Shown here: positions 4,994 to 8,147 of the stretch, in pieces | Layout of the letters: every line of letters begins with the position of its first letter | How positions within the stretch are numbered: the stretch's first letter is position 1 | Assembly (NCBI RefSeq): GCF_028128765.1 | Contig: NZ_LBJG01000027.1 | Coordinates: 186,001-250,000 of the forward strand | Origin: Bradyrhizobium sp. CCBAU 51627 | GTDB lineage: Bacteria > Pseudomonadota > Alphaproteobacteria > Rhizobiales > Xanthobacteraceae | Reading direction: 5' to 3' | DNA: 64,000 bases | Position numbers and translations under genes: made by a program | Notes under the pieces: generated by a model | What the model was told of the DNA's origin: nothing | Databases searched by the model: none | Seen by the model: the letters and a program-made list of their open reading frames with translations, nothing else

Positions 4994-5067
4994 TGGAGCG
5001 GGTGAAGGGAATCGAACCCTCGTATTCAGCTTGGAAGGCTGCTGCTCTACCATTGAGCTACACCCGC
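4994..5067 (-). tRNA. tRNA-Gly (anticodon TCC)
   Basis: The minus strand gives a 74-nt cloverleaf from G at 5067 to an encoded CCA at 4994-4996. The acceptor GCGGGTG pairs with CACCCGC, the D-arm is GCTCAATGGTAGAGC, the anticodon loop is CTTCCAA (TCC), and the T-loop is GGTTCGATTCC. The TCC anticodon reads GGA/GGG glycine codons. Confidence 0.95.
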
Positions 5068-5179: not shown

Positions 5180-5208
5180 TTAACAGCGGCAGCGTTGCGC
5201 CCTATATT
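5180..5208 (+). promoter_or_regulatory. Sigma-70-like promoter for the 5243 micro-ORF
   Basis: TTAACA (5180-5185) and TATATT (5203-5208) are spaced 17 bp apart, a good match to housekeeping -35/-10 hexamers. The predicted start near 5215 leaves a leader of about 28 nt before the GTG at 5243. Confidence 0.5.
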
Positions 5209-5242
5209 CAGCATCCCGAAACCAACGAAAGGAGGTGATCCA

Positions 5243-5287
5243 GTGTCTTATCTCAAGCGCTGTCACCTCGCTGGGATCGCCCGCTAA
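5243..5287 (+). CDS. Micro-ORF of 14 codons with an extreme Shine-Dalgarno sequence
   Basis: GTG at 5243 opens a 14-residue frame (VSYLKRCHLAGIAR). GAAAGGAGGTGATCC at 5227-5241 is fully complementary to the 3' end of 16S rRNA, far longer than a normal SD. A promoter-like pair lies upstream and a strong terminator hairpin at 5348 downstream, so the whole unit is a transcript of roughly 170 nt. I do not recognise the peptide. It could be a leader peptide, a highly translated microprotein, or a regulatory RNA whose anti-16S segment matters more than the peptide. Confidence 0.45.
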   Translation: MSYLKRCHLAGIAR

Positions 5288-5347
5288 GCTCTCGTCAAGG
5301 CTTGGCATCGGGGCGCTTCCAGCCCTGGACCAGCGAGCAAGAAATCG

Positions 5348-5382
5348 GGCGCGACGGGGTTCTCCCGCCGCGCCTTTTCTTT
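5348..5382 (+). terminator. Rho-independent terminator of the micro-ORF transcript
   Basis: GGCGCGACGGG (5348-5358) pairs with CCCGCCGCGCC (5364-5374), 10 of 11 pairs with one A-C mismatch and a 5-nt loop, followed by TTTTCTTT. The T-rich tail is on the plus strand, so it does not serve the kinase gene ending at 5417 on the minus strand. Confidence 0.75.
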
Positions 5383-5416: not shown

Positions 5417-7816
5417 TCAGGGCCCTTCGCCCGCGAGCATCTCTCGGATCTTCTGCGACAGGTCCGCCTTCCTGTACGGCTTCCGAAGCAGCGCGACGCC
5501 AGGATCGAGATGTCCCTCGTGGACGAGGGTATTGTCGGTATAGCCGGAGGTGTAGAGCACCCGCACGCCCGGTCGGCGGAGCCGGACCGCCTCGGCCAAT
5601 TCCCGCCCGTTCATGCCGCCGGGCATGATGATGTCGGTGAACAGGAGATCGAAGCTCGCGCCCTGGTCGACCAGCGCGAGCGCGGCTGCGCCATCGCCGG
5701 CGGTGAGCGTGCGATAGCCGAGGCTGCCGAGTTGGGCGATGACGTAGCCCTGCACCAGCGGATCGTCCTCGACCACGAGGATGGTCTCGTGTCCGCGCGC
5801 CGGTGCTGGCGCCTCAACCGGCCCGGACCTGGCTCCCGCCCCACCCGCCGATCGCGGCAAGAACAACCGTACCACCGTGCCGCGGCCCTCCTCGCTCTCG
5901 ATCGCGACGGTGCCGCCGGTCTGCTTGACAAAACCGTAAACCATGCTCAGGCCGAGCCCGGTGCCGCGGCCGACCCCCTTGGTGGTGAAGAACGGCTCGA
6001 ACACGCGGTCGCGAATGTCGGCCGGAATACCATGGCCGGTGTCGGCCACGGCGACCATGACAAAGGAGCCGGCATCGCCGTCGCCTTCGCCGGCACCGTC
6101 GACCTGCCGGTTTGCGGTCTCGAGCGTGAGCCTGCCGCCACCGGGCATCGCATCGCGCGCATTGACGGCGAGATTGACGATCGCCGACGAAAGCTGCGAC
6201 GGATCGGCCATCGCCGGCCACGTATCGTCGGCAAGCCGTGTCACGATCTCGACGTGCTCGCCGAGGATCGGCCGCAACAGCTTCGCCGTCTCGACCACGA
6301 GACCATTGACGTCGATCTCGCGCGGTTCCAGCGGCTGGCGCCGCGCGAAGGTGAGCAGCTGCGACGTGATCTCGGCGCCGCGCGAGGCCGCATCATCGAT
6401 GAGCTGGGCGATCGCTGCGAGCTCGGGCTTGTCCGCAAGCTCCTCCTGGATGATCTCGATGGTTCCGGTGATGACGGTCAGCACATTGTTGAAGTCGTGC
6501 GCGACGCCGCCGGTGAGCTGGCCGATCGCGTCCATCTTTTGGGACTGGCGAAGCCGCTCCTCGGTCTCGTGCTGCGCGGTAAGATCCGTGGCCGAGCCGC
6601 GATAGCCCATGAAACGGCCGTCGTCGGCGAACACCGGCTGACCGTTGACGCTGAAGCAATGCAGGTGCCCGGCTGCATCGCGGCCGCGATACTCGAATTT
6701 CCGGAACGGCTCGTGGCGATCGAGCGTCGCCATGTGGTCGTGCCATTTCTGCACTTCCGCGTCGTGATCGAACGCCGCGTCCGGACGCCGCTTGCCGATC
6801 AGCGCCTCAGGGTTCATGCCGAAAGCGCCGGCCCGGTCCGATATGTAGGTGAAAACATGATCTGGCCCGGTTTCCCAGAACCAGTCGGATGCGGTCTCGG
6901 CATAGTCGCGAAAGCGCTGCTCGCTCGCACGCGCATCCTCTTCGGCACGACGGCGGATCTTCAGATCGCGTTCGAGATTCGCATTGGCCTCGCGCAGCTC
7001 GCCATAGGCGCGACCGAGGTTGACGCACATGGCGTTGAATGCGTCGACCACCTTGTCCAGCTCGTCGGCGTCGTGAAACGCCCGTCGCTCCAGATGCAAA
7101 GGCGGCGGCGGCCTCGCCAGGCTGTACTTGCTGACGAACTCTGCGATGGCGACCAGATGCCGCGTCACCAGAATGTGGAACATGTAGATGATGAACAGTG
7201 AGACGACGAACGTCTTTGCCGCCTGGCTTGCCAGGATGACCAGGGCCCGGTGCAGCAATTGCTGATACACATCACTCAGCGTCGCCTCGACGTGGAGCAC
7301 GCCGATGGTGTGCGCGCTCCCCTGCACGGCATAGGTCAGCGGATAGTCGCGCGTCACCACCGAGCGGCTCTTTCGCTCGCCGACGGCGACACGGATGGGA
7401 TTGGGGCGATCGGCAATCTCGCGAACCTCGGCGGCCCGGATATCGGGCAGCCGCAGGATGCCGTCGAGCTGGAGCTCGAGCTGGTTCTGGTCGAGATTCC
7501 ACAGACTCTCGCCGAGGCTCGCGGTGGTGCTGCGGCCGACCTCCTCGAGCCGCGTCTCAATCACTCCGACTTCGCGTTCGTAGTCCAGATAGAGCTGGAG
7601 CGCGGTCAGTGTCAGCGTCACGACTGAGGAGAACAGCAGTACGGCGGCAAGCAGGCGGGGCCCGATGCCGCTGCGCGACCAGTTGAAAATCCGCGACAGC
7701 GGCGCCACGAGCATCGGCGACGCGAACGCGGCTGCGCCGCCGCTCAAATCCTGCTTCGCAGCCATCGGCGCAGCAGCGCGGCCGCGATCGGGATTCTTGT
7801 CACCTGCGTTGCCCAT
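5417..7816 (-). CDS. Membrane hybrid sensor histidine kinase (HAMP-PAS-HisKA-HATPase-REC)
   Basis: About 799 residues from ATG 7816 (an in-frame start at 7876 is possible; neither has a strong SD). The order is: a transmembrane helix (LLAAVLLFSSVVTLTLTAL), a periplasmic region of about 130 residues, a second helix (FVVSLFIIYMFHILV), a HAMP-like linker, a PAS domain with a DWFWETG start, HisKA with GGVAHDFNNVL (phospho-His), HATPase_c with NARDAM, VADTGHGI and GRGTGLGLSMV, and a C-terminal receiver with VVEDDP, the acceptor Asp in FTDIIMPG and Lys in LRKPYR. It is divergent from a periplasmic binding-protein gene, which could supply or share its ligand. The output partner is not in the window. 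Confidence 0.9.
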   Translation of the reverse strand: MGNAGDKNPDRGRAAAPMAAKQDLSGGAAAFASPMLVAPLSRIFNWSRSGIGPRLLAAVLLFSSVVTLTLTALQLYLDYEREVGVIETRLEEVGRSTTASLGESLWNLDQNQLELQLDGILRLPDIRAAEVREIADRPNPIRVAVGERKSRSVVTRDYPLTYAVQGSAHTIGVLHVEATLSDVYQQLLHRALVILASQAAKTFVVSLFIIYMFHILVTRHLVAIAEFVSKYSLARPPPPLHLERRAFHDADELDKVVDAFNAMCVNLGRAYGELREANANLERDLKIRRRAEEDARASEQRFRDYAETASDWFWETGPDHVFTYISDRAGAFGMNPEALIGKRRPDAAFDHDAEVQKWHDHMATLDRHEPFRKFEYRGRDAAGHLHCFSVNGQPVFADDGRFMGYRGSATDLTAQHETEERLRQSQKMDAIGQLTGGVAHDFNNVLTVITGTIEIIQEELADKPELAAIAQLIDDAASRGAEITSQLLTFARRQPLEPREIDVNGLVVETAKLLRPILGEHVEIVTRLADDTWPAMADPSQLSSAIVNLAVNARDAMPGGGRLTLETANRQVDGAGEGDGDAGSFVMVAVADTGHGIPADIRDRVFEPFFTTKGVGRGTGLGLSMVYGFVKQTGGTVAIESEEGRGTVVRLFLPRSAGGAGARSGPVEAPAPARGHETILVVEDDPLVQGYVIAQLGSLGYRTLTAGDGAAALALVDQGASFDLLFTDIIMPGGMNGRELAEAVRLRRPGVRVLYTSGYTDNTLVHEGHLDPGVALLRKPYRKADLSQKIREMLAGEGP

Positions 7817-8147
7817 GCATCCCGCCCTCGAATACGGCGACACCCTCTCCGGCCTGCCGGTCGCAGCCACGCGCAATTCGACGGTTTTGATACCCCCTCA
7901 GCACGCGATGCGCGCGGCAATCCTGTCGGCCCTTGGGCGATCTGAGGTCGGTGGGGTCATATCTTGCGCCCAGCAGCAGGATTTCCGCGCAAACTACCAC
8001 CCTCCGTGCTAGAATGACATCGGTGAAAATCCGGAGTCGCCTGCATGGCAGGCGACCGTCAGGTTTTTGACCGGCGTGAGTGCCATCTTCGGTGGATCGT
8101 GCGGACGCAGGAAGCTAGTGGTAGCAAGCGCCGAGCTGAGGGGCACC
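7817..8147. other. Divergent intergenic region between kinase and binding-protein genes
   Basis: 331 bp with no convincing gene. It holds a perfect 9-bp-arm palindrome at 8036-8056 (GTCGCCTGC ATG GCAGGCGAC) followed on the plus strand by GTCAGGTTTTT, which has the shape of an attenuator or terminator ahead of the binding-protein gene. Otherwise nothing recognised. Confidence 0.5.

Follow-up and report, generated by a model that had tools for sequence, protein, structure and literature searches.

The closest described system to the locus treated here is rreB, a small mRNA of the Bradyrhizobiaceae reported by Hahn and colleagues. It reportedly carries a 17-nt Shine-Dalgarno (SD) sequence followed by a GTG start and an open reading frame (ORF) for 14 amino acids, in an mRNA of about 165 nt. 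The RNA is said to co-sediment with 30S subunits, to be weakly translated, and to be stabilised once the start codon is removed. It is also said to be conserved in the family and to have relatives, called rreR, in the Rhodobacter/Roseobacter group.

The report itself (Hahn et al. 2017, RNA Biol 14:1353) stands in the reference lists of PMC7298713 and PMC7217052. Table 1 of PMC7217052 includes a 14-aa peptide from B. japonicum and an 18-aa peptide from Dinoroseobacter shibae, both entered as unstructured.

A unit of this kind lies in the genome of Bradyrhizobium sp. CCBAU 51627. The window, meaning the whole stretch of DNA that was analysed, is 64,000 nucleotides long. Between 5180 and 5380 on its plus strand are found a sigma70-like promoter, a 17-nt anti-16S sequence, a GTG-started ORF of 14 codons, and a terminator (Table 1). 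The unit appears to be the already known gene rreB. Like rreB, with its complementarity of at least 16-17 nt to the 16S 3' end at a small ORF, it has an extended SD of 17 nt; it also shares the GTG, the 14-aa ORF, and the conservation in the family, and an mRNA of about 165 nt is predicted for it. Against the reported features of rreB, no difference was found. As an observation, the original prediction, which drew attention to the locus from its letters, is correct and sharp, but it concerns a gene already known. Its interpretation is supported in part, and it mentions neither the ORF-SD pairing nor an earlier description of the gene. The folding evidence given below adds to rreB. The reading preferred here, at a probability of roughly 0.6, is a stand-alone, self-locked rreB small mRNA that free 30S subunits open through their 16S tail, and whose likely output is the RNA rather than the peptide.

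Table 1. Features of the unit and its flanks, with positions in the window
Feature	Position	Strand	Remarks
tRNA-Gly	4994-5067		divergent from the unit
Promoter	TTAACA 5180-5185; TATATT 5203-5208	+	17-nt spacer; 10/12 consensus matches
Predicted transcript, about 165 nt	5215-5380	+	predicted from promoter and terminator alone; start taken from the -10, end from the T run
Extended SD, GAAAGGAGGTGATCCAG	5227-5243	+	exact complement of 17 nt at the 16S gene 3' end
14-codon ORF, GTG to TAA	5243-5287	+	peptide MSYLKRCHLAGIAR
P1	5232-5269	+	SD core and start region (5232-5246) with codons 5-9 (5257-5269)
P2	5270-5323	+	codons 10-14, stop and following bases (5270-5290) with 5299-5323
P2 outer stem	5270-5276 / 5317-5323	+	
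P3	5267-5337	+	codons 9-11, CTCGCTGG (5267-5274), with CCAGCGAG (5330-5337)
Intrinsic terminator, possibly bidirectional	5347-5378	+	hairpin 5347-5374, then TTTTCTTT
Histidine-kinase-like gene	5417-7876	-	convergent with the unit

The unit and its conservation

The original prediction described a complete small transcription unit, with a -35/-10 pair upstream and a terminator downstream, and for the predicted transcript this is supported at both ends. The promoter is the sole promoter-like site within 1 kb, where shuffled sequences give 0.1. Among 145 related loci, the first upstream match to TATATT with at most two changes is TATATT itself in 64 and TATACT in 18. Under a loose rule (a hairpin, then at least 4 T in 8), a terminator follows in 91/91 related units. 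In the window, a pattern scan scored the terminator on the minus strand only, the plus stem having an A.C mismatch; folding shows the hairpin on the plus strand. On the minus strand the stem 5348-5374 is uninterrupted, with G-T in place of A.C, and the convergent kinase gene may use it as well. At the unit, no Rfam family scored above its gathering threshold, and the only matches in the window are three tRNAs.

The genome's own 16S gene ends in CTGGATCACCTCCTTTC, followed by TAAGGATG, so the 17-nt match is exact for the organism that carries it. The mature 16S end presumably lies one base beyond the match. With no mismatch, the site is the only one in the window at three mismatches or fewer, a limit at which 12 of 100 shuffled controls also gave a match. 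The calculated chance expectation for an exact 17-mer, in 64 kb on two strands, is about 7e-6. The first 14 bases of the match, GAAAGGAGGTGATC, occur in the 8.27-Mb assembly only at the 16S end and at the 5227 locus. The 17-base match to the 16S tail is borne out exactly, but its placement just ahead of the GTG is not. The two overlap by one base, the final G of the match also opening the GTG, and the spacing from GGAGG to GTG is 7 nt.

Both the 16S match and the frame are kept in close relatives. BLAST found the unit in 140/146 genomes of the genus (135/137 of the good ones), and in the 90 of these 140 that were fetched, the SD, the GTG, and the 14-codon ORF were all present (90/90). A covariance search with a model of 91 units, of the kind proposed for the family, matched 152/296 family genomes at E 0.01. 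By our own count 97/296 are strong, at E 2e-12 or better. Among the weak remainder are many units of a second form, called form B here; the form found in the window is form A. Plasmid and phage collections gave no match to the unit.

The 179 form-A units include repeated loci, the window unit occurring four times, and the sets compared differ in size. These are 159 distinct sequences for codons, 98 non-redundant sequences for P3 pairs, 64 for P1 and P3 cells, 145 loci for SD and promoter, 80 sequences for energies, 83 for the P2 outer stem, and 65/67 for codon usage. One locus (L181) was missed by the limit on SD changes and two (L152, L157) by a position filter; all three were inspected separately.

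The exact 17-mer is found in 94 of the 145 form-A loci fetched with the whole unit. In these 145 loci there are 53 substituted SD cells. Pairing with 16S survives as G-U in 51 of them (A-to-G or C-to-T changes); 35 of the 53 are one variant, so that the number of events is small. The remaining two, at the outermost base, lose the pairing. The comparison supports an SD held to the 16S tail by complementarity, among units that were listed only with few SD changes, so that loci with a lost or much altered SD are under-counted.

Helices predicted for the coding sequence

The stretch 5215-5380 folds better than 200/200 shuffles (z -3.6). P1 belongs to the best fold of 73/80 form-A sequences. Across 64 sequences, 99.4% of its 832 cells are paired, compared with 26-58% in slid controls. 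No double compensatory change was found in P1 among these sequences, and its support consists of invariance and wobble-keeping changes. The predicted pairing of the start codon averages 0.96 in 67 form-A sequences. In form A, P1 is predicted to sequester the SD and the GTG with the ORF's own codons 5-9. A very strong start site, which the original prediction had considered, is not supported, because the predicted fold hides the SD and GTG under these codons and because translation is reportedly weak.

P2 involves the end of the ORF. The third base of the stop codon and its P2 partner are AU in 44 of 91 units, GC in 33, GU in 10, and unpaired in 4. The outer stem keeps at least 5/7 pairs in 82/83 folds, with compensatory variants such as GCUGGGA/UCUCAGC, GCUGAGG/CCUCGGC, and GCUGGGG/CCCCGGC; to identify these partners, RNAs were truncated ahead of the P3 motif and their minimum-energy folds were used, a procedure that favours pairing.

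P3 joins part of the same codons to a strand further downstream. Its two sides are CTCGCTGG with CCAGCGAG in 68/98 sequences and CTCGCTGA with TCAGCGAG in 21/98; the other combinations are A/C (4), G/T (2), T/G inside the helix (2), and C/A (1). In alignment A2, both sides have changed from G-C to A-U in 16/64 sequences, all at one pair, so that the double changes may be few events. In total, 98.8% of P3 cells are paired in 64 sequences, against 28-44% in slid controls. None of 500 shuffles matched the observed number of paired cells, number of double-changed cells, or covariation score; the other two measures were matched by all 500.

Neither the P2 outer stem nor the three outermost pairs of P1 can form together with P3. 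For codons 9-11 the comparison supports two mutually exclusive downstream partners, in the P2 outer stem and in P3, and compensatory changes occur in both. In computed energy P3 lies on average 4.2 kcal/mol above the ensemble (0.4 to 10; 80 sequences). In the window the P2 outer stem is favoured over P3 by about 5 kcal/mol, whether or not the SD is held open.

A role for P3 in releasing the start codon was considered and rejected. With P3 formed in 80 sequences, the start codon stays paired (0.95 vs 0.96), so that P3 alone is no "on" switch; pairing of AAAGGAGG is 0.47 vs 0.57. Covariation of the SD with the ORF codons LAGIAR/LAEAAR was likewise dropped as an idea, since mixed combinations occur. 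In the minimum-energy fold, the partner of GAAAG in the SD (5227-5231) is the U tract at the 3' end of the terminator (5375-5380). This pairing, which is absent in the centroid, is a possible extra hold on the SD.

Codons, peptides, and related forms

The ORF in the window reads GTG TCT TAT CTC AAG CGC TGT CAC CTC GCT GGG ATC GCC CGC TAA. Over 159 distinct form-A sequences, the minor-allele fractions at positions 1, 2, and 3 are 0.266, 0.168, and 0.105 in codons 2-5, and 0.045, 0.061, and 0.004 in codons 6-13. In codons 6-13 the third positions are the most conserved, which is the reverse of ordinary protein selection. For instance, codon 12 encodes I, V, F, A, or D, and its third base is always C (65 non-redundant sequences). 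Codons that are rare in the window are fixed: TGT in 65/65 (usage 0.145), GCT in 62/63 Ala (0.057), GGG in 45/45 Gly (0.133), and TCT in 62/62 Ser (0.024), the usage reference being 26 ORFs picked by a crude script.

The start is GTG in 159/159 distinct form-A sequences. The 15th codon is TAA in 61, TAG in 66, TGA in 26, and TGG in 0, where independent bases predict TGG in 11/153; relatedness inflates these codon and stop counts. The other 6/159 ORFs end nearby, and no ORF of more than 17 codons occurs among the 179 form-A units, duplicates included. Given the constancy of third bases together with the kept start and stop, the fold and the translation both seem to be kept, the peptide less so.

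Related units were also sought in the class. The sequence AAAGGAGGTGATCCAGD was found in 25/387 genomes, of which 3 matches are 16S ends of other taxa and 22 are not. These 22 comprise 2 of form A, 15 of form B, 2 of form C, and 3 others. At three loci (L155, L159, and L161, at about 1500), an exact 16-nt SD precedes ORFs unlike those of forms A, B, and C; by eye, the ORF of L161 has a signal-peptide-like start.

A scan of GTDB contigs for AAAGGAGGTGATCCAGTGTCTCATTG yielded at least 120 form-B loci. The hosts among the matches listed include Methylobacterium, Bosea, Microvirga, Brevundimonas, Belnapia, Roseococcus, and others. Nearly all complete form-B loci among the matches listed encode peptides of 20-28 residues unlike that of form A, the MSHC start of these peptides being set by the scan pattern. 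At a Microvirga locus (L268) the encoded peptide is intermediate and has 14 residues, MSHCHCRRLAVVAR. One form-B unit (L296) is found in a metagenome-assembled genome labelled Ramlibacter, a betaproteobacterium, which may reflect contamination or transfer.

Form B has a helix of its own, between codons 3-5 (CATTGTC) and a GACAATG close to the terminator. Of the 91 non-redundant form-B loci listed, drawn from at least 120, 85 have CAATG in the 120 nt that follow the stop, where 5.7 are expected. The next two pairs of the helix covary (81/84 and 75/84 paired; p 0.0004 and 0.001 in permutations that ignore relatedness), and the position beyond the helix does not (12/84 paired, 18.1 expected). The helices of forms A and B together indicate that the ORF makes up one strand of the fold, while the other strand lies between the stop and the terminator.

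Form-B terminators were found in 67/84 loci, and 7 of these 67 were dropped as mis-called before a swap test on the other 60 sequences. The test, which sets native against swapped pairs of form-B helices, was left unused: native pairing was favoured for L2 (z -7.4) and for an inner hairpin (z -6.7), yet the control, which pairs the same form-B codons with the 30 nt after the stop, also reached z -6.7. L1 of form B was not significant in this test (z -1.3, p 0.10), the retrieval pattern having fixed most of one strand.

The form-B SD is mostly open in the predicted fold, with an SD-ORF pairing of 0.20 vs 0.57 in form A. Locking of the SD is not universal, and it is not claimed for form B. Against ORF shuffles, the SD-ORF duplex has a mean z of -1.48 in form A (67 sequences), -1.10 in form B (95), -1.34 in form C (2), and -1.82 in the others (4/5 sequences), and z falls below -1 in 72% of form A and 56% of form B. 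Coming from related sequences with one shared SD, these energies are no more than supportive.

The codon evidence bears on one alternative in particular. In this model the 14-aa peptide is the trans-acting product of an ordinary small mRNA, and the structure of the RNA does no more than tune its dose. The invariant GTG and the interchange of three stop codons, with TGG in 0/153, agree with it. A precedent is peTrpL, also of 14 aa, which PMC7298713 and PMC10117765 present as a leader peptide needed for regulation. The model is nevertheless rather unlikely. The amino-acid-changing positions of codons 6-13 vary more than the third bases, the peptides of forms A, B, and C have by eye no evident common sequence, and the B. 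japonicum and Dinoroseobacter peptides are among those given as unstructured in PMC7217052. What counts may be the folding RNA and not the peptide.

Readings of the unit and comparison with known systems

The preferred reading, a self-locked rreB mRNA opened by free 30S subunits, can be set out as a series of steps. Transcription would run from the unit's own promoter to its own terminator, with no neighbouring gene included. In the free RNA, P1 is predicted to lock the SD core and the GTG. Pairing with the 16S tail on a free 30S subunit would begin at GAAAGG, the loosely bound 5' part of the SD, and strand displacement would then lead to a 17-bp SD:16S duplex, which is computed to outcompete P1. 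In computed terms, opening the 17-nt SD in the window costs 10.4 kcal/mol and opening GAAAGG alone 3.8 kcal/mol, while the isolated duplex is worth -32.2 kcal/mol, numbers that will differ on a real 30S subunit. Codons 9-11 would swap between the P2 outer stem and P3, giving the RNA more than one state. Because the long duplex reaches the start codon, initiation should be slow. The likely output would be the 30S-bound RNA and the act of translation; the peptide, which has no sequence conserved between lineages, is a less likely one. The RNA would gauge or buffer free 30S, either in trans or through an effect on the ribosome pool. Sensing or titration of 30S, as first suggested for this locus, is compatible with a stand-alone gene, with wobble-keeping SD changes, and with competing helices.

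A related model dispenses with a role for translation. Here the RNA is a non-coding sponge that masks the 16S tail of free 30S subunits, in hibernation or quality control, and translation is incidental. Such a sponge accords with the complementarity to the 16S tail and its wobble-keeping substitutions, with a computed duplex much stronger than the lock, and with the reported co-sedimentation with 30S. The kept start and stop codons and the bounded length of the ORF in the 179 form-A units make it rather unlikely, too. A 30S-responsive RNA is ranked above both the trans-acting peptide and the pure sponge.

The preferred reading may be extended, tentatively, to the class. It is possible, if doubtful, that these units form a class-wide alphaproteobacterial family of stand-alone RNA switches, with the 30S subunit as the ligand, the ORF codons as the lock, and the peptide as a by-product that drifts between lineages. 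The complement of the 16S tail would be the bait, and the ORF codons would provide both the lock and the strands of the competing helices. Free 30S would open the lock by strand displacement, and short, slow translation would reset it. The RNA would in this way report how much free 30S is present or whether the 16S 3' end is intact.

A leader or attenuator of a neighbouring gene would likewise have competing helices ahead of a terminator, but this explanation is very improbable here. The gene behind the terminator is convergent rather than co-directional, and the competing helices do not overlap the terminator stem. In 20 form-B loci the nearest ORFs, from crude calls, are alike only within three pairs of related genomes. 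Since these loci have no common neighbour genes, the gene probably acts on its own. For the convergent gene in the window, NCBIfam matches are listed, none of them above its cut-off. The neighbouring tRNA-Gly(tcc) recurs in 6/6 congeners examined and in 2/5 form-A loci of other genera, and in 0/24 loci of other kinds, one of which has tRNA-Gly(ccc). Finally, a chance match or a 16S gene fragment, which the 16S match itself and nothing more would favour, is refuted by the conservation in congeners and the related units elsewhere, and is further opposed by the chance expectation for the 17-mer and the lack of an Rfam rRNA match at the unit.

Two of the congeners examined carry insertions that split the unit, which speaks against its being essential. 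In one (L106 in G310, about 265-2515), some 2.2 kb with HEPN_Swt1 and DUF5343 proteins lie between the promoter and the SD, which is complete but cut off from its promoter. CAACGAAAGG is found at both junctions, and the insert looks like a site-specific insertion. In the other (L358 in G254, 331-2797 on the reverse complement), the unit is split at the start codon by about 2.45 kb of DNA, in which an ORF resembling a cytosine methyltransferase was recognised by eye. TCCAGTG is found at both junctions, and the ORF and helix strands behind the insert are still intact.

If the switch reading is true, bacteria possess an RNA dedicated to gauging free or intact 30S subunits. To our knowledge, no direct sensor of either has been described. 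The unit would also be an example of a coding sequence fixed by RNA folding instead of by the protein. It calls for caution with short conserved ORFs from genomics, which need not imply a functional peptide.

To the features of rreB given above, the present analysis adds P1, the predicted pairing of the ORF with the SD, together with the P2 and P3 partners, all on comparative evidence, and a second form, with different peptides, in many alphaproteobacteria. The relative rreR resembles form C (loci L171 and L172), in which an extended SD is followed by a GTG and an 18-codon ORF. Both differ from the unit in the window by an unlike peptide, in a comparison based on two form-C loci.

Other systems share single features with the unit. 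The Sinorhizobium meliloti RNA rnTrpL likewise is a small RNA that encodes a 14-aa peptide, peTrpL; as presented in the relevant passages of PMC7298713 and PMC10117765, it differs in being leaderless, in lying within the trp attenuator, and in having no extended SD. In tisB (in the account given in PMC7708055) and in translational riboswitches, the ribosome binding site is hidden in structure, as is predicted for the unit. Here the sequestering strand would be the ORF's own coding sequence, and the competitor the 16S tail. SD motifs longer than usual are also described for initiation in Staphylococcus aureus (in the part of PMC13009471 concerned with them), where the extended SD is a species-wide feature of initiation, whereas here it belongs to one dedicated unit.
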